Assembly (NCBI GenBank): GCA_031280145.1 | Contig: JAITHB010000134.1 | Coordinates: forward strand, 1 to 36,985 | Source of the DNA: Oscillospiraceae bacterium | GTDB lineage: Bacteria > Bacillota > Clostridia > Christensenellales > Aristaeellaceae | DNA length: 36,985 nucleotides | Direction of reading: 5' to 3' | Shown here: in pieces, positions 6,580 to 35,882 of the stretch | How positions within the stretch are numbered: position 1 is the stretch's first letter | Layout of the letters: each line of letters begins with the position of its first letter | The notes under the pieces: model-generated | Seen by the model: the letters and a program-made list of their open reading frames with translations, nothing else | What the model was told of the DNA's origin: nothing | Databases searched by the model: none | Made by a program: the position numbers and the translations under genes

Positions 6580-6673
6580 GCCGAAAATATGATTTGCGCG
6601 GCGGGAATCGTGCGACAAGATTCAAAACCGCTCGGTATTATATTGCGGAATCAAGGCGGTTTTTGCAGAAAAC

Positions 6674-6754
6674 GGTCGCCCCTACAGATTTTACAATATC
6701 CGCCCGATTGAACGCAGATAAACCCCTGTAGGGGCGACCGCCTCGGTCGCCCGC
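6674..6754. repeat. Modular palindromic repeat, spacer type A (copy 1)
   Basis: Inverted ends CGCCCCTACAG (6677-6687) and CTGTAGGGGCG enclose a spacer containing GATTTTACAATATC and GCCCGATTGAA. The right end continues as the palindrome GGGGCGACCGCCTCGGTCGCCC. The same spacer recurs in opposite orientation at 32535-32597. The gap 6517-6967 contains no convincing gene, only this element, the next one and the candidate sigma-H promoter. Confidence 0.8.
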
Positions 6755-6843
6755 GGTTATCAATACATCGCCCGTTTGAATGCAACCTACGGCAACGCCA
6801 ACAATGTTTGTTCACGTTCAATCATGCATACAACCAAACCCCT

Positions 6844-6971
6844 GTAGGGGCGATTTCCAATCGCCCGCCGGTCGGTCGTACGTCCCACCCACACCGCCGG
6901 ATGCGTATGTCTGCCTACGGCGAAATGGGACGTACGCGTAACAGGCGGGCGACCGAGGCGGTCGCCCCTAC
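6844..6971. repeat. Modular palindromic repeat, spacer type C (copy 1)
   Basis: 128 bp with outer inverted ends: GTAGGGGCGATTTCCAATCG on the left and CGACCGAGGCGGTCGCCCCTAC on the right. The ~75-bp centre (CGTACGTCCCAC ... GTATGTCTGCCTACGGCGAA ... GGGACGTACGCG) is related in reverse complement to the centre of the element at 32654-32779. The right end overlaps the stop codon of the next gene (6968-6970). Confidence 0.8.
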
Positions 6972-7525
6972 AAAGGTAATATTTGGAAATTCCCATTTTC
7001 GTTTCCTGTTTTTTCAATAATCCATTTTTCAATCTGTTGCGCGGTTTCCTCCGGCGTAAGGTCTGAATTGTCCAGCAATGTCATGGACGGTTCGGTCTTC
7101 TCACCGTTTTCTTGCAGCCAGCGATTGAAATGAAGAGATGATGCAATCCGGTTTTTATCATTGATGCCGCGGCCTTCACGCATTCGGCGCTCCATCACGT
7201 CGTCGCTGCATACGATGGCGAGGTAGTATATATCCGTGAAATATTTCCTTGCGCCGCAAACCTCAAAATGACGCGGTTCACCGCATCCGCACAGCACACA
7301 GGGCTTACCGATCTGCGAGATATTCGCGCACATGGTCAGCCACAGCTCCCGATAAGCGCGGTAGCCGTCGTCCGGATCGCCATCAAAAATATTGTTCCAT
7401 AGAATATCGCTTTCCAGTACAACGTAATCTGTTTCCCTTTGGAAAAGCACTTCACAGGCACAGGATTTGCCAACGCCGCTCGCGCCGGATACAATGAACA
7501 GCGGTTGTTTTTTCGTGGGTATCAT
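6968..7525 (-). CDS. P-loop nucleoside/shikimate-kinase-like protein
   Basis: 185 aa. Residues 8-21 form a beta strand and Walker A motif (LFIVSGASGVGKS), followed by ESDILWNN and a DxxxMERRMREGRG segment like the LID/Arg region of small-molecule kinases. No substrate can be assigned; it resembles the broad AAA_33 / nucleoside-monophosphate-kinase-like families. The TAG stop lies inside the terminal GTAGGGG of a palindromic repeat, so the last ~10 residues (NENGNFQILPL) may have been altered by repeat insertion. It stands alone, with no operon partner. Confidence 0.75.
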   Translation of the reverse strand: MIPTKKQPLFIVSGASGVGKSCACEVLFQRETDYVVLESDILWNNIFDGDPDDGYRAYRELWLTMCANISQIGKPCVLCGCGEPRHFEVCGARKYFTDIYYLAIVCSDDVMERRMREGRGINDKNRIASSLHFNRWLQENGEKTEPSMTLLDNSDLTPEETAQQIEKWIIEKTGNENGNFQILPL

Positions 7526-10740: not shown

Positions 10741-10851
10741 CGAATGAAAAATTAAAAATGAACAATGAAAAATTAATACTTTAGGTTTGGTGTTATAGCT
10801 TTCCGTTCCAAAGTAATAATTTTTCATTGTTCATTCTTAATTTTTCATTCG
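10741..10851. repeat. Long inverted repeat built from AATGAAA-type heptamers
   Basis: Arms 10741-10782 and 10810-10851 match at 40 of 42 positions around a 27-nt loop. The left arm reads as five 7-nt units (AATGAAA, AATTAAA, AATGAAC, AATGAAA, AATTAAT). It fills the gap between convergent dpaB and the SDR gene and could act as a bidirectional terminator. Confidence 0.85.
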
Positions 10852-10857
10852 TATATC

Positions 10858-12610: not shown

Positions 12611-12639
12611 ATTTTACCATATAGTACTATAAAATGCAA
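12611..12639 (-). promoter_or_regulatory. Sigma-A promoter of the dipeptidase-SDR unit
   Basis: On the minus strand, TTGCAT (12634-12639), 17-bp spacer, TAAAAT (12611-12616). The -35 abuts the heptamer repeat at 12640. Confidence 0.65.
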
Positions 12640-12718
12640 AATGAAGAATGAAAAAATAATGGCTTGACTGTTGAAATCAAACCATTAATTCTTCATTATT
12701 AATTTTTCATTCTTAATT
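12640..12718. repeat. AATGAAA-type heptamer inverted repeat (second copy)
   Basis: Left arm AATGAAG-AATGAAA-AAATAATGG (12640-12662). The right arm (from about 12682) is, in reverse complement, AATTAAG-AATGAAA-AATTAAT-AATGAAG-AATTAATGG. Arms differ by whole 7-nt units. It lies between the dipeptidase promoter and the clpX stop. Confidence 0.75.
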
Positions 12719-12720
12719 AT

Positions 12721-13983
12721 CTACACCGCGCGGCTTCCCGTTTCTATATCGTCGTCCAGCACCAGAAGGGGCGGCTGTCCGCCGATGGTGTCCTGCGTTA
12801 TGATGCACTTGCGCACGTCGTTGCGGCTGGGCAGCTCAAACATCGTGTTCAGAAGAAGCCCCTCAAGCACCGCGCGCAGTCCGCGCGCGCCGCTCTTTCT
12901 GTCTATGGCGTTGCGCGCTATCATGCGCAGCGCGTCAGACTTGAACTCAAGCCCGATGTTGTCAAGCGCGAGCAGACTTTGATATTGCTTGACGAGCGCG
13001 TTGCGCGGCTCCGTCAGGATGCGCACGAGCGCGTCTTCGTCCAGCTTGTCGAGCGTCACGACTATCGGAAGGCGTCCCACGAATTCGGGGATGAGTCCGA
13101 ATTTCAGCAAATCCTCGGGGCGGATCTGTTCGAGAATCTTGCCGATATCGCGATCCTCCTTGCCGTGTATCTCAGCGCCGAAGCCCATGGATTTCTTGCC
13201 TATGCGGTTCTCGATTATCTTATCGATGCCGTCGAACGCGCCGCCGCAGATGAACAGAATGTTCGACGTGTCTATCTGTATGAATTCCTGATGCGGATGC
13301 TTGCGCCCGCCCTGCGGCGGAACGCTCGCGACGGTGCCTTCGAGTATCTTGAGCAGCGCTTGCTGAACGCCCTCGCCCGACACGTCGCGCGTGATGGACG
13401 GGTTGTCGCTCTTTCTCGCTATCTTGTCGATTTCGTCGATGTAGATGATGCCCTTCTGCGCGTTCGCGATATCGAAGTCCGCGTTCTGGATGAGGCGCAG
13501 CAGAATATTCTCCACGTCCTCGCCGACGTAGCCCGCTTCCGTGAGACAAGTCGCGTCCGCGATAGCGAACGGCACGTTCAATATTCTGGCGAGCGTCTGC
13601 GCGAGGAAGGTTTTGCCCGAGCCTGTTGGTCCAAGCATGACGATGTTGGACTTCTGAAGCTCGACGCCCGTCATTTGGACAGGCGAATTTATGCGTTTAT
13701 AATGGTTGTAGACGGCGACCGCGAGCGTGCGCTTCGCCTGTTCCTGCCCGATGACATACTCGTCGAGGATAGACTTGATGTCCTTCGGGCGAAGCTGGTC
13801 GGGCGAGCGCGTCGGCTGCGTAAGCCCCAGATCGTCTGCGATAATGTCTTGGCAGAGCATCACGCATTCGTCGCAGATATAGATTGACGGACCCGCGACA
13901 ATGCGGCGTACCTGATCCTGACCCTTTCCGCAGAAGCTGCAATGCGCCTGGTCGTTGCTGTTGTTGTTGATGTTTTTCGCCAT
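12721..13983 (-). CDS. clpX: ATP-dependent Clp protease ATPase subunit ClpX
   Basis: 420 aa AAA+ unfoldase. N-terminal zinc-binding domain CSFCGKGQ ... CDECVMLC (four Cys), Walker A GPTGSGKT, Walker [12 protein letters not shown], sensor and Arg-finger regions present; the ClpP-docking loop reads MGFG where IGFG is usual. Start at 13983 (MAKNINNNS) with GAGG about 10 nt upstream. It follows clpP with a repeat-filled gap in the order tig-clpP-clpX, a common bacterial layout. Threads tagged or damaged proteins into ClpP. Confidence 0.97.
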
Positions 13984-14004
13984 CGAAAAAATACCTCTGT
14001 TCAA

Positions 14005-14100
14005 AATTAAGAATGAAAAATGAAGAATGAAAAATTAATGGTTTTGAGCTTTAGAAGACAAACAATCAATTATTCATTTTTCATTTTTAATTCTTCATTA
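14005..14100. repeat. AATGAAA-type heptamer inverted repeat (third copy)
   Basis: Left arm 14005-14039 is five exact 7-nt units (AATTAAG, AATGAAA, AATGAAG, AATGAAA, AATTAAT). The right arm from about 14067 is the inverse with unit shuffling. It separates clpP and clpX and includes the clpP stop codon (14098-14100). Unlike the copy at 10741 it lies between co-directional genes. Confidence 0.8.
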
Positions 14101-14697
14101 TTTCTTCCCCTTCTCGCGGGGTTTGTAAATCTCGTCGATTATGCCGTAGGCAAGCGCTTCCTCAGCCGTCATGAAACGGTCGCGGTCGCTGTCGCGCTCT
14201 ACGCGCTCGACGGGCTGACCCGTCATCTCCGCCATGAGGCCGTTCATCTTGCGCTTGGTGTGGATGAGCCACTCCGCGTGAATCGATACGTCGCTCGCTT
14301 GACCGCGCGCGCCGCCCGACGGCTGATGGATAAGTATCTCGCTGTTGGGCAGCGCGAGGCGTTTGCCTTTGTCGCCCGCCATCAGAAGGAACGCGCCCAT
14401 CGACGCCGCAAGCCCTACGCACACCGTGCGCACCTGCGGCTTGATATACTTCATCGTGTCGTAGATTGCCATGCCCGCCGTGATCGAACCGCCGGGGCTG
14501 TTTATGTAGAAAGAAATATCCGAATCGGGATTCTCCATTTCAAGGAATAAAAGCTGCGCCACAATAATGTTGGCGGAATCGTCGTTCACTTCGCCGCCCA
14601 GAAAAACAATCCTGTCCTTGAGAAGGCGCGAGTATATGTCATAGCTGCGTTCGCCGCGGTTGGTTTGCTCGACTACCATCGGTATGAGTCCGCTCAT
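14098..14697 (-). CDS. clpP: ATP-dependent Clp protease proteolytic subunit ClpP
   Basis: 199 aa serine protease forming the barrel that partners ClpX. Catalytic triad Ser99 (GLAASMGAF), His124 (ILIHQPSGG) and Asp173 (DSDRDRF). SFYINSPGG is the oxyanion/strand motif. Start at 14697 follows GGAGG by 5 nt; the TTG at 14709 overlaps that site and is rejected. A short propeptide-like N-terminus ([12 protein letters not shown]) is typical. Confidence 0.97.
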
Positions 14698-18219: not shown

Positions 18220-20007
18220 ATGAAAGATATAACCAGCGCCAGCTTGCGCGCGCTTTACCTTGAATTCTTCAAACAAAAAGGACACGCCGTAATACCGAGC
18301 GCGTCCGTCATACCGGAGAACGACCCGACCGTATTGTTTACCACAGCGGGAATGCACCCGCTCGTGCCGTATCTGCTGGGCAACCCGCATCCCGCGGGAA
18401 CGCGCTTGACGGACGTGCAGAAGTGCGTGCGCACCAGCGACATAGACGACGTCGGCGACTTCAGCCACCTCACGTTCTTCGAGATGATGGGCAACTGGTC
18501 GCTTGGCGATTACTTCAAGAAGGAAGCGATCGAGTGGTCGTGGGAGTTCCTCACCTCGCCCGAGTGGCTGGGGCTTGACCCCGAACGGCTCGCGTTCTCC
18601 GTGTTCGCGGGAGATGAAAACGCCCCGCGCGACGAAGTGAGCGCGGATTTGTGGCACTCCGTCGGTGTGCCGCGCGAGCGCATATTCTATCTGCCTAAGG
18701 AAAACAACTGGTGGGGACCCAATGGGCAGACAGGACCCTGCGGGCCGGACAGTGAAATGTTCATGATAACCGACACGCCGGCGTGCGGTTCTGACTGCTC
18801 CCCCGCGTGTTCGTGCGGACACTATCTCGAAATCTGGAACGACGTCTTCATGCAGTATAACAAGATCGCGGACGGAACATTCGTTCCGCTGCCCAAACCG
18901 AACGTCGATACAGGCATGGGTTTGGAGCGTACGCTGTGTGTTCTGACAGGCAAAAAATCGGTTTATGAGACTGACTTGTTCGCGGAGATCATCGCAAAGA
19001 TTGAAGAACTGACCGGGGAGAAGTACGGCGAAAGTACAGAAATAACGCGGGCGATACGAATAGTTTCAGACCACATGCGCACCTCCGTCTTCATGATTGG
19101 CGACGAGAAGGGCATAACGCCGGGCAAGGTTGACCAAGGTTATGTTTTGCGCAGGATCATCCGCCGCGCCGTCCGCCACGGCAAGAAATTAGGCGCGCCG
19201 AACGGGTTCACGGCGCAGGTCGCGCAGGTTATAATCGACAAATATAAGGATGTTTATCCCGAACTCGAGCGCAACGCTTCCTTTATTAAGGAACAGCTTG
19301 TGCTGGAGGAGGAGCAGTTCGAGCGCACCCTCCACAACGGCAGCCGCGAATTCGAGAAGGCGGCGGCGCGCGCGAAGGACGGCGTACTTGACGGGCTGAC
19401 CGCGTTCCATCTTTATGACACATACGGCTTCCCGATAGAGATAACGCGCGAGCTTGCGGCGGAGCATGGTCTCACGGTTGACGAGGCGGCGTACGCGGAA
19501 CACTTCGAGGCGCACCAAGCGTTGTCCAGAGCGGGAGCGGAGCAGCGCTTCAAGGGCGGTTTGGCGGACCATTCCGACGACACCGCCAAGCTGCACACGG
19601 CGACGCACCTTCTCAACGCCGCGCTGCGCAAGGTTTTAAGCCCCGACGTGAACCAGAAGGGCAGCAACATCACGGCGGAGCGCCTTCGCTTCGACTTCAA
19701 CTTCGCGCGCAAAATGACGAAGGAAGAGCTGGTCGAGGTTGAAAGGCTGGTCAACGAGGCGATTGCCGCGGACGCGGTTATAGACTGCCGCGAGATGACC
19801 GTCGAGGAAGCCCGAGAGGAAGGCGCGGTCGGCGTGTTCGAGGGCAGATACGGCGAGCGCGTGAAGGTGTACGCGATGGGCGGCTTCAGCAAGGAGATCT
19901 GCGGCGGTCCGCACGCGAGCCGCACGGGCGAGCTTGGGCATTTCAAGATTCAGAAGGAAGAAAGCTCCTCCGCGGGAGTGCGCAGAATCAAGGCGGTTCT
20001 TGAGTGA
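18220..20007 (+). CDS. alaS: Short alanyl-tRNA synthetase (no C-terminal domain)
   Basis: 595 aa against ~870 for standard AlaRS. The class II catalytic core (FTTAGMHPLVPYL; MGNWSLGDYFKKEA; GPCGPDSEMF; LEIWNDVFMQY; DTGMGLERTL), the tRNA-binding helical part (YVLRRIIRRAVRHG) and the editing domain (HTATHLLNAALRKVL; CGGPHASRTGELG) are all present. Editing zinc ligands HxxxH and CxxxH are kept, though CGGTH became CGGPH. The protein stops right after the editing domain, so the oligomerising, tRNA-elbow-binding C-Ala domain is missing. An inserted Cys cluster (ACGSDCSPACSCGHYLE) lies between motif 2 and LEIWN. Short forms of this kind are annotated in Clostridia as AlaRS-related; a full-length alaS may exist elsewhere. 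GAGGAG lies 11 nt before the ATG. Confidence 0.85.
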   Translation: MKDITSASLRALYLEFFKQKGHAVIPSASVIPENDPTVLFTTAGMHPLVPYLLGNPHPAGTRLTDVQKCVRTSDIDDVGDFSHLTFFEMMGNWSLGDYFKKEAIEWSWEFLTSPEWLGLDPERLAFSVFAGDENAPRDEVSADLWHSVGVPRERIFYLPKENNWWGPNGQTGPCGPDSEMFMITDTPACGSDCSPACSCGHYLEIWNDVFMQYNKIADGTFVPLPKPNVDTGMGLERTLCVLTGKKSVYETDLFAEIIAKIEELTGEKYGESTEITRAIRIVSDHMRTSVFMIGDEKGITPGKVDQGYVLRRIIRRAVRHGKKLGAPNGFTAQVAQVIIDKYKDVYPELERNASFIKEQLVLEEEQFERTLHNGSREFEKAAARAKDGVLDGLTAFHLYDTYGFPIEITRELAAEHGLTVDEAAYAEHFEAHQALSRAGAEQRFKGGLADHSDDTAKLHTATHLLNAALRKVLSPDVNQKGSNITAERLRFDFNFARKMTKEELVEVERLVNEAIAADAVIDCREMTVEEAREEGAVGVFEGRYGERVKVYAMGGFSKEICGGPHASRTGELGHFKIQKEESSSAGVRRIKAVLE

Positions 20008-20055
20008 AGAGTGAACAGTTAATAGTTATTAACTATTATTTACAAGCACTAAACT

Positions 20056-20181
20056 CTTAACTTTTAGCTTTTAGCTTATAACTTTTAACTTTTAACTTTT
20101 AGCTTTTAGCTTATAACTTATAACTTTTAGCGTTTAGCTTATACCTTATAACTTTTAATTTTTAGCTTTTAACTTTTAACT
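20056..20181. repeat. Array of 18 heptamers, class TTTARCT
   Basis: Exactly 126 nt, eighteen consecutive 7-nt units: mostly TTTAGCT, TTTAACT and TATAACT with single-base variants (TTTAGCG, TATACCT, TTTAATT). It fills the gap between the AlaRS-like gene and the YbjQ gene. There is no coding potential across it. Confidence 0.9.
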
Positions 20182-20209
20182 ACCCTCAGCTAGGAAAAGG
20201 AGAAGTATA

Positions 20210-20575: not shown

Positions 20576-21421
20576 TTGTACGAGATAATTCGGAAGAAAC
20601 GTTTGAACGAGACGATAACCCTTATGACCGTCAATGCCCCGCGCGCGGCGCTTCACGCCAAACCGGGGCAGTTTGTCGTTCTGCGCGCGGACATATACGG
20701 CGAACGCGTTCCTCTGACAATCGCGGACAGCGACGGCGCGGCGGGTACGATTACGGTAATCTTCCAGTTGGTCGGCGCGTCCACAAGAAAGCTTGATATG
20801 CTCGAAGTCGGCAGCAGTTTGGCGGACGTGACGGGACCGCTCGGCAGACCGTCGGAACTGCAAGGCATAAAACGCGCCGCGATTGTCGCGGGCGGGCTGG
20901 GCGTTGCGATTGCGTATCCCATCGCGAAGGCGCTGCGCAGTCTTGGAGCGAGCGCAGACGGGTTCGTGGGTTTCCGCAGCGAGGGCTTGATTATATTGCA
21001 GGACGAGTTCACCTCGTTCTGCGACTATATCGACATACGCACCGACGACGGCAGCAACGGCAGCGCGGGCTTCGTTACAGACGGGCTTCGCGCAAGGCTT
21101 GAAGCGGGCGAGCGGTACGACGAAGTGATTGCGATAGGTCCGCTTCCGATGATGAAGGCGGTCTGCAACCTCACCAAACCATACGGAATCAAAACTACGG
21201 TCAGCATGAACTCTATTATGATAGACGGAACGGGCATGTGCGGCTGCTGCCGCCTGACAGTCGGCGGGCAGACGAAGTTCGCGTGTGTGGACGGTCCCGA
21301 TTTCGACGGTCATCTGGTCGACTTCGACGAAGCGGCGCGGCGCGGCAGGTTCTATTTGGCGGAGGAAAGGGAAGCGGAAGAACATCGGTGCCGCCTTTTG
21401 GAGAGTGCAATCAATGGCTGA
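20576..21421 (+). CDS. nfnA: NfnA / SudB-type FAD-[2Fe-2S] electron transfer subunit
   Basis: 281 aa, dihydroorotate-dehydrogenase-electron-transfer family. FAD-binding region with AKPGQFVVLRA and ERVPLTIAD, NAD-binding region with AGGLGVAIAYPIAKAL, and a C-terminal [2Fe-2S] motif DGTGMCGCCRLTVGG ... FACVDGPDFDGH. The start is a TTG at 20576 with GGAG 8 nt upstream; no better ATG fits the N-terminus. It overlaps the next gene by 8 nt. Together they resemble NfnAB, the bifurcating ferredoxin-NAD-NADP transhydrogenase, or sulfide dehydrogenase SudBA; the choice cannot be made from sequence by eye. Confidence 0.9.
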   Translation: MYEIIRKKRLNETITLMTVNAPRAALHAKPGQFVVLRADIYGERVPLTIADSDGAAGTITVIFQLVGASTRKLDMLEVGSSLADVTGPLGRPSELQGIKRAAIVAGGLGVAIAYPIAKALRSLGASADGFVGFRSEGLIILQDEFTSFCDYIDIRTDDGSNGSAGFVTDGLRARLEAGERYDEVIAIGPLPMMKAVCNLTKPYGIKTTVSMNSIMIDGTGMCGCCRLTVGGQTKFACVDGPDFDGHLVDFDEAARRGRFYLAEEREAEEHRCRLLESAING

Positions 21422-22826
21422 TATGGCAAAAACCAAAACTTACATGCCGCTTCTTCCGATAGATAAGCGCCGCGCCACGTTCGAGGAGGTCGCGCTCGGA
21501 TACACCGCGGAGCAAGCGCGGAAGGAAGCGGGACGCTGCCTCAATTGCAAGCACCGCCCCTGCGTTTCGGGCTGCCCCGTGAACGTCGCCATACCCGAAT
21601 TCATCGCGGCTATCCATGAGGGCGACGGAGAACGAGCGGGCGAGATTATCCGCAAGACGAACAGCCTTCCCGCCGTGTGCGGGCGCGTGTGTCCGCAGGA
21701 GAACCAGTGCGAGAAGCTCTGCGTGCGCGGCAGGCAGGGCGAACCTGTGGCGATAGGTCGGCTTGAGCGCTACGCCGCCGAATTTGAACCTCGGAATGGC
21801 GGCGGGCGGCAAAACGCCGAACCTATAAATGTAAACCACCCCGCCAAAACTGCGGTTTTGTCGGGGACCCCGGTAAAGGTTGCGGTGATAGGCTCCGGTC
21901 CCGCGGGGCTTTCCGCCGCGGGAACTCTTGCCAAAGCGGGATTTACTGTCTCAATATTTGAAGCGCTGCACAACCCCGGCGGCGTGCTGGCGTATGGGAT
22001 ACCCGAGTTCCGTCTGCCGAAGAATCTGGTGAAGAAAGAGATTGACGCTCTCACGAGCCTCGGCGTTTCCATAGAAACCAACGTCGTGATAGGCAAGTCG
22101 CTGACGCTCGACGATTTGCGCGGCGAAGGCTTCTCGCGCTTCGTCATATGCTCCGGCGCGGGGTTGCCGCAGTTCATGAACATCAAGGGCGAGACGCTGC
22201 CCGGCGTTCTTTCCGCGAACGAATTTTTGACGCGCGTCAACCTTATGAAGGCGTATCGCTTTCCCGAGTTTGATACGCCTGTGCGCGTCGGCAGGAAGGC
22301 TGTCGTTGTCGGCGGCGGGAACGTCGCGATGGACGCCGCGCGCTGCGCGCTTCGCCTGGGCGCGGAAGTGACTCTCGTCTACAGGCGCGGCAGGGAAGAG
22401 ATGCCCGCGCGCGCGGAGGAGATAGAACACGCGATTGAGGAAGGCGTACGCTTCGAGCTTCTGACAAACCCCGTCGAATACACGCGCAAGGAAGACGGAA
22501 CGGTCGGCGGCGTTTCGTGCGTCCGCATGGAGCTTGGCGAACCCGACGCGTCGGGACGGCGCAGGCCGCGCGAAATTGCGGGAAGCGAGTTTACGATAGA
22601 CTGCGACACGGCGATTATCGCAATCGGCAACGCGCCGAACCCCACGGTAACGTCCGCTTTGCCCGACCTCGCCACGCAGAAGTGGGGCGGCGTTATAGCG
22701 GACGACGACGGACGCACAAACCTGCCGAACGTGTACGCGGCGGGCGACGCCGTTTCGGGCGCTGCGACCGTCATTCTCGCGATGGGCGCGGGTATGCGGT
22801 GCGCGATGGATATAATCAATATGTAA
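21414..22826 (+). CDS. nfnB: NfnB / SudA / GltA-type flavoprotein
   Basis: 470 aa, related to glutamate synthase small subunit. N-terminal [4Fe-4S] ligands CLNCKHRPCVSGC (Cys42, 45, 50, 54) and CGRVCPQENQCEKLC; FAD fold IGSGPAGLSAAGTLAKAG; NAD(P) fold VVGGGNVAMDAARCALRLGA; C-terminal FAD contact VYAAGDAVSGAATV. The start at 21414 lies within the end of nfnA. Residues 141-154 (NHPAKTAVLSGTPV), in the linker between the Fe-S and FAD domains, are encoded by a 40-bp palindromic repeat that also occurs between genes in this window. No gltB-like large subunit is nearby, favouring the Nfn/Sud role. Confidence 0.92.
   Translation: MADMAKTKTYMPLLPIDKRRATFEEVALGYTAEQARKEAGRCLNCKHRPCVSGCPVNVAIPEFIAAIHEGDGERAGEIIRKTNSLPAVCGRVCPQENQCEKLCVRGRQGEPVAIGRLERYAAEFEPRNGGGRQNAEPINVNHPAKTAVLSGTPVKVAVIGSGPAGLSAAGTLAKAGFTVSIFEALHNPGGVLAYGIPEFRLPKNLVKKEIDALTSLGVSIETNVVIGKSLTLDDLRGEGFSRFVICSGAGLPQFMNIKGETLPGVLSANEFLTRVNLMKAYRFPEFDTPVRVGRKAVVVGGGNVAMDAARCALRLGAEVTLVYRRGREEMPARAEEIEHAIEEGVRFELLTNPVEYTRKEDGTVGGVSCVRMELGEPDASGRRRPREIAGSEFTIDCDTAIIAIGNAPNPTVTSALPDLATQKWGGVIADDDGRTNLPNVYAAGDAVSGAATVILAMGAGMRCAMDIINM
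21835..21874. repeat. 40-bp palindrome embedded in nfnB
   Basis: ACCACCCCGCC at the left and GTCGGGGACCCCGGT at the right; 12-bp stem CCCCGCCAAAAC / GTTTTGTCGGGG with one mismatch. It corresponds to the intergenic copies at 24675-24714 (inverted) and 35675-35712. It keeps the reading frame. Confidence 0.85.
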
Positions 22827-23516: not shown

Positions 23517-24662
23517 ATGAAGAAACGTGTATGGGCTGTCGCTCTCGCGTGCGTCATGCTGGCCGCGATGGGCGTTATGCCTGCAATGGCGGAAGATACC
23601 ATCAAGCTTGGCGGACTTGCGCCGCTGACGGGACCTGTCGCGCAATATGGTCTGGCCGTCCAAAAGGGCGTCGACCTTTACATTGAGCAGCTTAACGCGG
23701 CCGGCGGAATCGACGGCAAAAAAGTCGAGATAATCTGGTACGACGAAAAGGGCGACGAACAGGAAGCCGTCAACGCGTACAATCTGCTCGTCGACATGGA
23801 CGAAGTCGTCGGCATAATCGGCGACGTCACAAGCAAGCCGATGTACGCCGTGGTTGACCGCGTGAAGGAAATCGGCATCCCGATAATCACCGCGTCCGCC
23901 ACGTCTTACGACATTACGACGGACAACCCGAGCGTATTCCGCTCATGCTTCCTCGACCCGTTCCAGGGAACAATCGCCGCGAACTTCGCTCTGGAAACGT
24001 TAGAGGCCAAGAAGGTCGCGGTCATCTACGACGTAGCTGACGACTATTGCATAGGGCTCGCGGAAGCGTTCAAGGCGCAGGCCGAAAAGAACGGGCAGGA
24101 AGTCGTGGCGTACGAAGGAAGCACGGCGACAGACGTAGATTTCACGGCGCAGTTGACGAACATCGCGGCGAAAGCGCCCGACGTGCTTTATGTCGCCCAT
24201 TACTATCAATCCGCCGCGCTCATCGTGCAGCAGGCGGCCAAGCCCGAAGTCGCGCTCGATTGCTACTTCCTTGGCGCGGATGGAATCGCGGGTATAGAGA
24301 ATGTTGTATCCGACCCCTCCCTGCTTGATAACAAATTCTTCTATACGGATCACTTGCCGACCGACTCCACCGATCCCGTCGTCGTAGACTTCCTCGCGGC
24401 GTTCGAGGCGAAGTACGGCGAACCCATCTCGATGGCGTTCAACGCTACAGGCTACGACGCGGCGCTGCTTCTGTGCGAAGCCATCAAAGCGGCGGGTTCG
24501 ACGGATTACGCGGCGGTAACGGCGGCGCTTAAAGCCACCGACGGCGTACAAGGCGTCACAGGCAAGTTCAGCTTCGACGACCACAACGACCCGATCAAAT
24601 CCGCCTATATCATGACGTTTGAGGGCGGCAAGCAGACGTTCCGCGTAAGACAGGATCCGTAA
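23517..24662 (+). CDS. Branched-chain amino acid type ABC solute-binding protein (orphan)
   Basis: 381 aa, Leu/Ile/Val-binding (Peripla_BP_6) family. Signal peptide about 1-25 (MKKRVWAVALACVMLAAMGV ... AMAED), then IKLGGLAPLTGPVAQYG, DEKGDEQEAVNAYNLLVD, GDVTSKPMYAVVD and ITASATSYDITTDNPSVFR. The mature protein begins without the lipobox Cys expected of a monoderm binding protein. GGAGGAG 5 nt before the ATG. No permease or ATPase genes follow, so the transport partners must be elsewhere, or the protein acts as a sensor. Ligand not assignable. Confidence 0.9.
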   Translation: MKKRVWAVALACVMLAAMGVMPAMAEDTIKLGGLAPLTGPVAQYGLAVQKGVDLYIEQLNAAGGIDGKKVEIIWYDEKGDEQEAVNAYNLLVDMDEVVGIIGDVTSKPMYAVVDRVKEIGIPIITASATSYDITTDNPSVFRSCFLDPFQGTIAANFALETLEAKKVAVIYDVADDYCIGLAEAFKAQAEKNGQEVVAYEGSTATDVDFTAQLTNIAAKAPDVLYVAHYYQSAALIVQQAAKPEVALDCYFLGADGIAGIENVVSDPSLLDNKFFYTDHLPTDSTDPVVVDFLAAFEAKYGEPISMAFNATGYDAALLLCEAIKAAGSTDYAAVTAALKATDGVQGVTGKFSFDDHNDPIKSAYIMTFEGGKQTFRVRQDP

Positions 24663-24674
24663 GACAAACAATTC

Positions 24675-24714
24675 ACCGGGGTCCCCGCCAAATCCGCAGA
24701 TTTGGCGGGGTGGT
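24675..24714. repeat. 40-bp palindrome, intergenic copy
   Basis: Perfect 12-bp stem CCCCGCCAAATC / GATTTGGCGGGG with a 4-nt loop, 12 nt after the solute-binding gene stop. It is the reverse complement of the copy inside nfnB. It could act as a transcription-attenuating hairpin. Confidence 0.85.
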
Positions 24715-24725
24715 TTATTCATCGG

Positions 24726-24925
24726 AACGCGGTTTGCGCCGCGTCAGACTGTCGACAAAAGCCCACAGGCGTTGTAAAGGGCGGGCGACCGCGGCGGTCG
24801 CCCCTACAGGGTGTATGCTATCGGTATACAGGAGCGCAATATGCTGTAGGGGCGAGCCCCCGGCTCGCCCGCGGGCATACAAAACAAACGTTTTTGTCGA
24901 CAGTCTGAACGCGGTTTACGCCGCG
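24726..24925. mobile_element. MITE-like element with terminal inverted repeats and flanking direct repeats
   Basis: TCAGACTGTCGACAAAA (24744-24760) is exactly inverted at 24892-24908. Outside these, ACGCGGTTTGCGCCGCG (24727-24743) is repeated directly at 24909-24925 with one mismatch. The interior (24781-24873) carries the modular palindromes with spacer type B (CAGGGTGTATGCTATCGG). No transposase. The gap 24663-25017 holds only this, the 40-bp palindrome and one more palindrome. Confidence 0.7.
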
Positions 24926-24933
24926 TTTTTTTT
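24909..24933 (+). terminator. Terminator hairpin at the right flank of the MITE-like element
   Basis: CGCGG-TTTACG-CCGCG followed by eight T. The left direct repeat has the same hairpin without the T run, so this may be the original terminator of the solute-binding gene, now displaced by the insertion. Confidence 0.6.
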
Positions 24934-32424: not shown

Positions 32425-32517
32425 CCTGCCCGATGATCGTACGACCCTGTTTGCCGCAGATATCGTATGCCATATACATTGTTATCACCTACGGTGCGGC
32501 GGCGACGTACGCGGTAC

Positions 32518-32614
32518 AGGCGGGCGATTGGAAATCGCCCCTACAGGGGTTTACAACATTCAATCGGGCAGATATCGTAAAATCTGTAGGGGCGACCGGC
32601 CTCGGTCGCCCGCG
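32518..32614. repeat. Modular palindromic repeat, spacer type A (copy 2, inverted)
   Basis: Palindrome GGCGGGCGATTGGAAATCGC, then spacer A reversed (GGGGTTTAC, CAATCGGGCAGATATCG, TAAAATCTGTAGGGG), then palindrome GGCGACCGGCCTCGGTCGCC. The spacer and the following CAATACATCGCCCG flank also occur at 6674-6790. The gap 32379-32786 contains only the terminator and these repeats. Confidence 0.8.
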
Positions 32615-32653
32615 GGTTTCAATACATCGCCCGAGTGATATCACCATACATAT

Positions 32654-32779
32654 GTAGGGGCGATTTCCAATCGCCCGCACGTTACGCGTACGACCCATTT
32701 CACCGCAGACAGACATACGTATCATACGGTGTGGCGAGGACGTACGCGTTACAGGCGGGCGATTGGAAATCGCCCCTAC
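32654..32779. repeat. Modular palindromic repeat, spacer type C (copy 2)
   Basis: 126 bp: GTAGGGGCGATTTCCAATCG at the left, its inverse CGATTGGAAATCGCCCCTAC at the right, and a centre with TTACGCGTACGACCCATTTC, GACATACGTATC and GACGTACGCGTTACAG. Related to 6844-6971 in opposite orientation. It ends 8 nt before the stop codon of the collagen-like gene. Confidence 0.8.
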
Positions 32780-32786
32780 AGGGGTT

Positions 32787-35588: not shown

Positions 35589-35660
35589 TTGACAATAAGT
35601 TGGGTTCGGGCGGCATTCTGCCGCTCCGGGCTGTCGACAAGGCTTGACGGTGTTGTAAAG

Positions 35661-35793
35661 GACGGGCGAACGACCCACCCCGCCAAATCTGCGGATTTGT
35701 CGGGGACCCCGGGAGGCGGTCGCCCCTACAGGATGTATGCTATCGGTATACAGGAACTCAATATGCTGTAGGGGCGAGCCCCCGGCTCGCCCG
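35661..35793. repeat. Modular palindromic repeat, spacer type B, interrupted by the 40-bp palindrome
   Basis: Flank CTGTCGACAA and GTTGTAAAGG match the MITE-like element at 24726-24925, as does spacer B (TGTATGCTATCGGTATACAG) and the right palindrome GGGGCGAGCCCCCGGCTCGC. The left palindrome, intact at 24781 (GGGCGACCGCGGCGGTCGCC), is split here by the 40-bp palindrome (35675-35712). The right terminal inverted repeat is lost. The 294-nt gap 35589-35882 contains no gene. Confidence 0.8.
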
Positions 35794-35882
35794 CCCTCTG
35801 CAACACGAAAAGTTTTTGCATATAATTATGAGGTGCGTCACCCCAATTGCCCCTGCAATTAATGTATTCACAGATGAATCGT

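Follow-up and report, generated by a model that had tools for sequence, protein, structure and literature searches.

A self-nesting 38-nt palindromic repeat in hairpins, mobile repeats and genes of an Oscillospiraceae bacterium genome

An interrupted repeat and its empty counterpart

The window analysed here, a 36,985-nt stretch of DNA, is contig 29 of a 189-contig assembly of an Oscillospiraceae bacterium (2,189,046 bases, 93.26% complete and 0.66% contaminated). It carries two copies of a repeat, termed R1, in which REP-type hairpins (hairpin A) are found. The copy at 24.8 kb is uninterrupted, and in the copy at 35.6 kb the first hairpin is split at its centre by a short palindrome, element B. 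Other copies of B lie downstream of one ORF and within a gltD-like ORF. The features concerned are the following.

21836–21873, + strand: in-frame B in a gltD-like ORF (21285–22826), with TAAA on either side
24676–24713, − strand: B copy without a host hairpin, just downstream of an ORF ending at 24662
24726–24744, + strand: hairpin AACGCGGTTTGCGCCGCGT, the left direct repeat beside R1
24745–24907, + strand: empty, intact R1 copy of 163 bp, with both terminal inverted repeats
24783–24802, + strand: intact palindrome GGGCGACCGCGGCGGTCGCC, the one named in the preliminary description
24908–24926, + strand: hairpin AACGCGGTTTACGCCGCGT followed by a T run (terminator-like), the right direct repeat beside R1
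35627–35800, + strand: B-carrying R1 copy, with the left terminal inverted repeat at 35627–35640 and the right one absent
35664–35673, + strand: left arm of the split REP-type hairpin A, GGGCGAACGA, one change from the usual GGGCGACCGA; carries the AACGA marker
35672–35673, + strand: left GA, apparent 2-nt target duplication, from alignment with the 24.8-kb copy
35674–35712, + strand: element B at the hairpin centre, CCCACCCCGCCAAATCTGCGGATTTGTCGGGGACCCCGG, a 38-nt quasi-palindrome plus one C (39 nt)
35713–35714, + strand: right GA, apparent 2-nt target duplication, from the same alignment
35715–35724, + strand: right arm of the split hairpin A, GGCGGTCGCC; with the GTAG tag (CCCCTACA), 35715–35730
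35734–35755, + strand: R1 spacer TGTATGCTATCGGTATACAGGA, with 97 genome matches at no more than 3 mismatches
35767–35794, + strand: second R1 hairpin, uninterrupted, GTAG-tagged, with a GAGCC stem, inverted relative to the first

The repeat at 35641–35793 matches the one at 24771–24872. The preliminary description had reported that the palindrome in this copy is interrupted centrally by another of about 40 nt, and this was confirmed. The flanks GTTGTAAAGG and CCCCTACAGG, the spacer and the second hairpin all match as it claimed, and the intact palindrome is present, although it begins at 24783 rather than at 24781. When the 35.6-kb copy is aligned with the 24.8-kb copy, the insertion appears as one 41-nt gap. 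The missing right terminal inverted repeat at 35.6 kb indicates that this R1 copy is truncated at its right end. Folding of single-stranded DNA gave −10.2 kcal/mol for B alone, −11.8 for the empty hairpin and −19.5 for the nest; nesting yields a single longer hairpin rather than a broken one.

Additional repeats are present in the window. REP-type A hairpins of either orientation are clustered at 6673–6990 and 32490–32786, and the clusters are partly similar. AT-rich runs with a 7-nt rhythm (AATGAAAAATTAAAAATGAA..., AACTTTTAACTTTTAGCT...) at 10743–10855, 12626–12729, 13991–14103 and 20003–20188 form a further dispersed repeat family, frequently as inverted pairs, and GCACCTC tandem repeats lie close to the contig end (36920–36978). 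No Rfam model matched the window.

Sequence and distribution of element B

Element B has the consensus CCACCCCGCCAAATCTGCGGATTTGTCGGGGACCCCGG, a 38-nt quasi-palindrome with the ends CCACC and CCCCGG and without an unpaired GTAG or CGTC tag. Its pattern matched 110 times in the 2.19-Mb genome, compared with 0 for the reversed pattern, and B followed within 6–30 nt by the palindrome arm CGGTCGCC matched 38 times, compared with 0 for the control. Given these counts, the B-in-palindrome arrangement is far beyond chance.

The B pattern had no match in any of the 199 relatives, of which 119 belong to the same family, 80 to the same order and none to the same genus. Nor did B turn up when 84,980 GTDB species and the IMG/VR viral contigs were scanned for exact matches, records very near the window's genome possibly being excluded from both, and a blastn search of the nested region against plasmids and phages gave no match. 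Looser B ends produced 2 matches in 1 of the 199 relatives, around an unrelated centre. As far as these collections show, B is a burst private to one genome.

Insertion sites and apparent target duplication

Pattern rules assigned 116 distinct single-B places to three classes: 52 at the apex of a REP-type hairpin, 17 at the apex of another B and 47 elsewhere, a few of the last being one-sided or cut by contig ends. Hairpin A (TGTAGGGGCGA...TCGCCC) hosts B in the stems GACC, GATT/GATA, GAGCC and GAGTC and in two untagged stems. Among the 110 places with at least 30 nt on each side, the flanks of B pair as a perfect stem of at least 6 bp in 45, compared with 3.8% of 3000 random positions; this count is low for the type-1 nests, because the AACGA change spoils their first pairs (score 5). 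Relative to the GTAG tag, B has an identical orientation in all 50 tagged A nests, which share descent and do not represent 50 events, and B-in-B copies are in the same orientation in 10 cases and the opposite one in 7. Grouped by eye, the junctions of tagged A hairpins fall into about 8 groups and those of B-in-B places into 9 or more. One copy (L174) sits within the GTAG tag rather than at the hairpin tip.

Two further arrangements were observed. At L183, an A hairpin with GATTGGACC contains B-in-B with a partial loss: the middle of the inner copy is missing, between short repeats. In a third host repeat (GGTCGCGCGAATCCG / GAACGCGCAAGCGTTC; L019, L146, L180, L016 and L042), B lies between two hairpins, at an identical point in several copies.

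The target duplication envisaged in the preliminary description takes the form of GA at the 35.6-kb copy and, imperfectly, of TR or TRAA at non-hairpin sites. Insertions into hairpins usually read GA-[B]-GA and add 41–42 nt; in GAGCC hairpins, no clear duplication is visible. The 43 B copies outside hairpins and outside B mostly have T-R-A-A-C on the left and G-G-T-R-A-A on the right. Left and right TR are equal in 17 of these 43 (permuted mean 8.6, a value of 17 being reached in 0 of 5000 permutations), and TRAA stands on both sides in 10 of them (permuted mean 4.5, reached in 5 of 5000). Junctions vary by 1–3 nt. The flanks of B appear to hold a short target duplication of 2–4 nt, imperfectly seen.

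A different route would be movement as single-stranded DNA through an HUH enzyme (RAYT- or IS200/605-like), with insertion beside a short motif and no real duplication. The hairpin-only nature of B, the near-constant TRAAC to its left at non-hairpin sites and its single orientation relative to GTAG hairpins are all consistent with this route. However, left and right TR covary, which fits duplication better than a fixed motif, and Y1_Tnp has no match in the genome; movement of this type is considered unlikely.

Copies of B in frame within genes

Several of the 47 places outside hairpins and outside B are in frame within recognisable genes, where a single B supplies 14 additional residues and B-in-B 28. 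In a Pfam scan of 20 ORFs with in-frame B, taken from 32 listed strand/locus choices, 19 matched a family. The insert falls within the span of a single Pfam domain in acetate kinase (L105), Uma2 (L140) and DUF445 (L202) proteins, and between domains in GltD (window), RsmB (L150), GH20 (L019) and GltB (L010), the GltB insert being a whole A[B]. It lies near the N-terminus in guanylate kinase, RNase III, PyrF and a class II tRNA synthetase, whose true start may be downstream. Genes with in-frame palindromic B keep their other domains. Several reading frames of B are used in different genes, indicating that the DNA is kept rather than one peptide.

Comparison with homologs delimits the insert in several of these proteins. 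For the DUF445 protein, all 3 relatives found (among 39) lack exactly the 14 B residues; a second own-genome match in this search comes from an unrelated ORF and consists of the B peptide alone. Alanine racemase (L009) is split by B-in-B and has 28 extra residues relative to 4luy, and RlmN (L151) has 28 relative to 6fz6, equal to 84 nt or two B units. Acetate kinase has a net excess of 11 residues over 2iir and 13 over 1tuu, in a length-variable loop. The GltD protein of the window shares 54–61% identity with proteins from uncultured Clostridia and from others, many of animal-gut origin. In its predicted model (mean pLDDT 81), the parts on either side of the B peptide (residues 141–153) fold, and the longest stretch below 50 (residues 138–149) overlaps that peptide; since linker length varies among relatives, GltD is weak evidence by itself.

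Host element R1 and the layers of insertion

R1 is MITE-like: it has terminal inverted repeats (CAGACTGTCGACAAA and their inverse), two inverted A hairpins around a spacer and no gene, and many copies are flanked by direct repeats of 15–30 nt. Empty copies measure 160–163 bp, copies with B 198–205 bp and copies with B[B] 242–246 bp, the 242-bp value being a cross-pairing in L008, so that the triple form is represented by 243 bp (two copies) and 246 bp. The outliers are one copy of 181 bp (L098) and three values from L008 (193, 242 and 275 bp), where two adjacent copies were cross-paired. The R1 ends (CAGRCTGTCGACAAA) matched 102 times in the genome itself and once in each of 5 of the 119 same-family relatives, and the search with these ends located no parent insertion sequence in either set. 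An IS1182-type origin of R1 was not supported.

The direct repeats beside R1 are themselves hairpins, some of them terminator-like (window 24726–24926; L080, L052, L097, L031, L073 and L004). Flank pairs scored at least 10 in 19 of the 32 R1 copies with both flanks, compared with 3.75% of permuted pairs. Duplication of a whole hairpin beside R1 looks unusual.

Among 51 R1 copies examined, a sample biased toward nests since B flanks were what was collected, 28 are nested, 22 empty and 1 unclear. The AACGA marker and an identical junction are common to 16 copies, including the one at 35.6 kb; the marker occurs without B in none of the 22 empty copies, and the string GGGCGAACGAGG is absent from the DNA examined. 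Because these 16 copies share both the junction and the private AACGA, which is never B-less, the B at 35.6 kb did not arise by a separate insertion. Several R1 copies with B sit at different sites, each between flanking repeats of its own (e.g., L052, L031, L063 and L198), and the composite therefore moved on: a single R1 copy acquired B, and R1[B] was then propagated. Four R1 copies (L011, L022, L081 and L088) contain a second B inside the first; their left inner junctions are identical, and L081 has lost some of the inner copy. The carried R1[B] gained this second B and was carried again as R1[B[B]].

At L067 and L039, the left arm of one hairpin type is joined through B to the right arm of another, as recombination through B would produce. 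Such mosaics, along with the single marker of the type-1 nest in 16 R1 copies, would be expected if B were immobile alone, having entered one hairpin once and been distributed from there solely through R1 or through gene conversion between similar hairpins. That account holds for the type-1 nest. Yet B is also found in unrelated stems, in its own centre both ways and in genes without R1 or a hairpin, and the isolated in-frame gene copies largely refute the account for B as a whole, which makes it very improbable.

The preliminary description had further proposed that the insertion took place after the first element had spread, and had set against this the possibility that the interrupted form is ancestral and the short form arose by deletion. 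The proposed order stands: B occurs in many unrelated contexts, relatives' genes are without it, and hairpins without an interruption are frequent (the 20-mer has about 137 near-palindromic places, with both strands read), which identifies B as the insert. The nest at 35.6 kb is an older insertion later carried by R1 rather than a fresh hit. Ancestry of the interrupted form is not supported. One partial loss, at L183, can be cited for it, but it requires precise loss of B from many hairpin types and from relatives' genes, and AACGA is absent from every short form seen; this account is scarcely credible.

Proposed mechanism

B is mobile, prefers hairpin apices, nests in itself and is carried by R1; independent insertions have occurred in several unrelated hairpin stems, at the centre of B itself in either orientation and, in frame, within genes. 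B is probably (at a probability of roughly 0.65) a non-autonomous miniature mobile element that adds 41–42 nt per insertion, including a 2–4-nt target duplication, through an enzyme supplied in trans and with a preference for hairpin tips. This enzyme would recognise the outer B stem and make a staggered cut leaving a 2–4-nt overhang. Its preferred target may be a GA-containing hairpin tip, single-stranded upon extrusion, or, elsewhere, a TRAA site, and a tip preference of this kind would resemble that of insertion sequences targeting the REP hairpin axis. Insertion at the tip disrupts neither the host hairpin nor the outer ends of B, so that nests stay mobile, and the 42-nt total keeps reading frames open, so that gene insertions survive.

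Considered as a MITE, B is palindromic, its duplication of 2–4 nt is imperfect, and a parent insertion sequence was not found in the DNA examined. An unpartnered B end, which would be a sign of an autonomous version, did not occur in 449 kb (redundant) of examined DNA. The enzyme search covered only three families, and Y1_Tnp (PF01797), DDE_Tnp_1_6 (PF13751) and rve (PF00665) each had 0 matches in this 93% complete assembly, in a genome crowded with gene-less mobile repeats. Assemblies of this kind often lose insertion sequences, so the absence of an enzyme carries little weight.

B could also spread via an RNA copy that is reverse-transcribed at a nick or in a loop, a route proposed for the GC clusters of yeast mitochondria. 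Its size, palindromy and 2-nt duplications are similar to those of GC clusters, for which RNA-mediated movement is favoured by the authors of PMC4478555 in the accessible part of that article; for B, such a route appears decidedly improbable. Returning to a trans-acting enzyme with tip preference, a broader view can be offered tentatively, at somewhat less than even odds: B may be a bacterial, gene-less element of about 40 nt that seeks single-stranded hairpin tips, its own included, and grows by nesting with its mobility and open frames preserved, a counterpart of the GC clusters.

Implications

Layered insertions are legible like strata in this one genome: first R1 multiplied, then it received B, then R1[B] multiplied in turn, and after a further B had gone into the existing one, the triple form was propagated as well. 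The genome also provides a lineage, distant from Rickettsia, in which a palindromic mini-element lengthens ordinary enzymes, by 14 or 28 residues. Because RPEs, REPs and GC clusters are likewise gene-less hairpins, the old question of their movement becomes more testable. In addition, such repeats fragment assemblies, many contigs here starting or finishing in R1, and produce shared peptides across unrelated proteins.

Comparison with known systems

The small dispersed repeats of cyanobacteria, treated by Elhai in 2008, are reportedly very small mobile repeats; B is like them in this respect. RPEs and intragenic REPs, according to the available portions of PMC3733652 and PMC10969869, resemble B as in-frame palindromes in functional genes, with several families per genome and clusters that encode longer inserts. 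This likeness is one of description. RPEs are about 150 bp in the same portion of PMC10969869, whereas B is 38 nt, has a host among the Clostridia and nests in its own centre.

With respect to REPs, Di Nocera and colleagues described GTAG and CGTC types, REPs lying in frame within O. terrae and R. conorii genes, and, in T. roseum, REPs within small palindromes (PMC3733652, in part). Hairpin A has an adjoining GTAG tag (TGTAGGGGCGA / CCCCTACA) like that of GTAG REPs, whereas B itself has none. R1 holds two A hairpins in inverted order, as REPINs do in the extracts available from PMC3733652 and PMC3116915, but differs from REPINs in its terminal inverted repeats and 15–30-nt direct repeats. Unlike RAYT-associated REPs, these repeats occur in an assembly in which no RAYT-type domain was found (PF01797, 0 matches). 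The insertion sequences ISPsy8, ISPpu9, ISRm22 and IS1397 have a fixed insertion point in REP palindromes with 2–6 bp repeats, and for ISPsy8 and ISRm22 that point is the REP symmetry axis (PMC1525189, excerpted text). These are full elements with a transposase, whereas B is gene-less and also enters itself and ordinary genes.

Mitochondrial GC clusters (GC42) are 42-nt palindromes with AG repeats (PMC4478555, accessible part), and B is likewise a palindrome of about 40 nt with a 2–3-nt duplication. GC clusters are mitochondrial, however, and B comes from a bacterial assembly; B works alike but is not classed as one of them, and in-frame gene insertion is absent from the descriptions of GC clusters in that part of PMC4478555. 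No report of all B traits combined in one bacterium was found in the literature searched, the original RPE and cyanobacterial papers lying outside its scope. Each of these traits has precedent, and B can be placed with the Rickettsia-palindrome-, REP- and GC-cluster-like kind, as a self-nesting member private to one genome.
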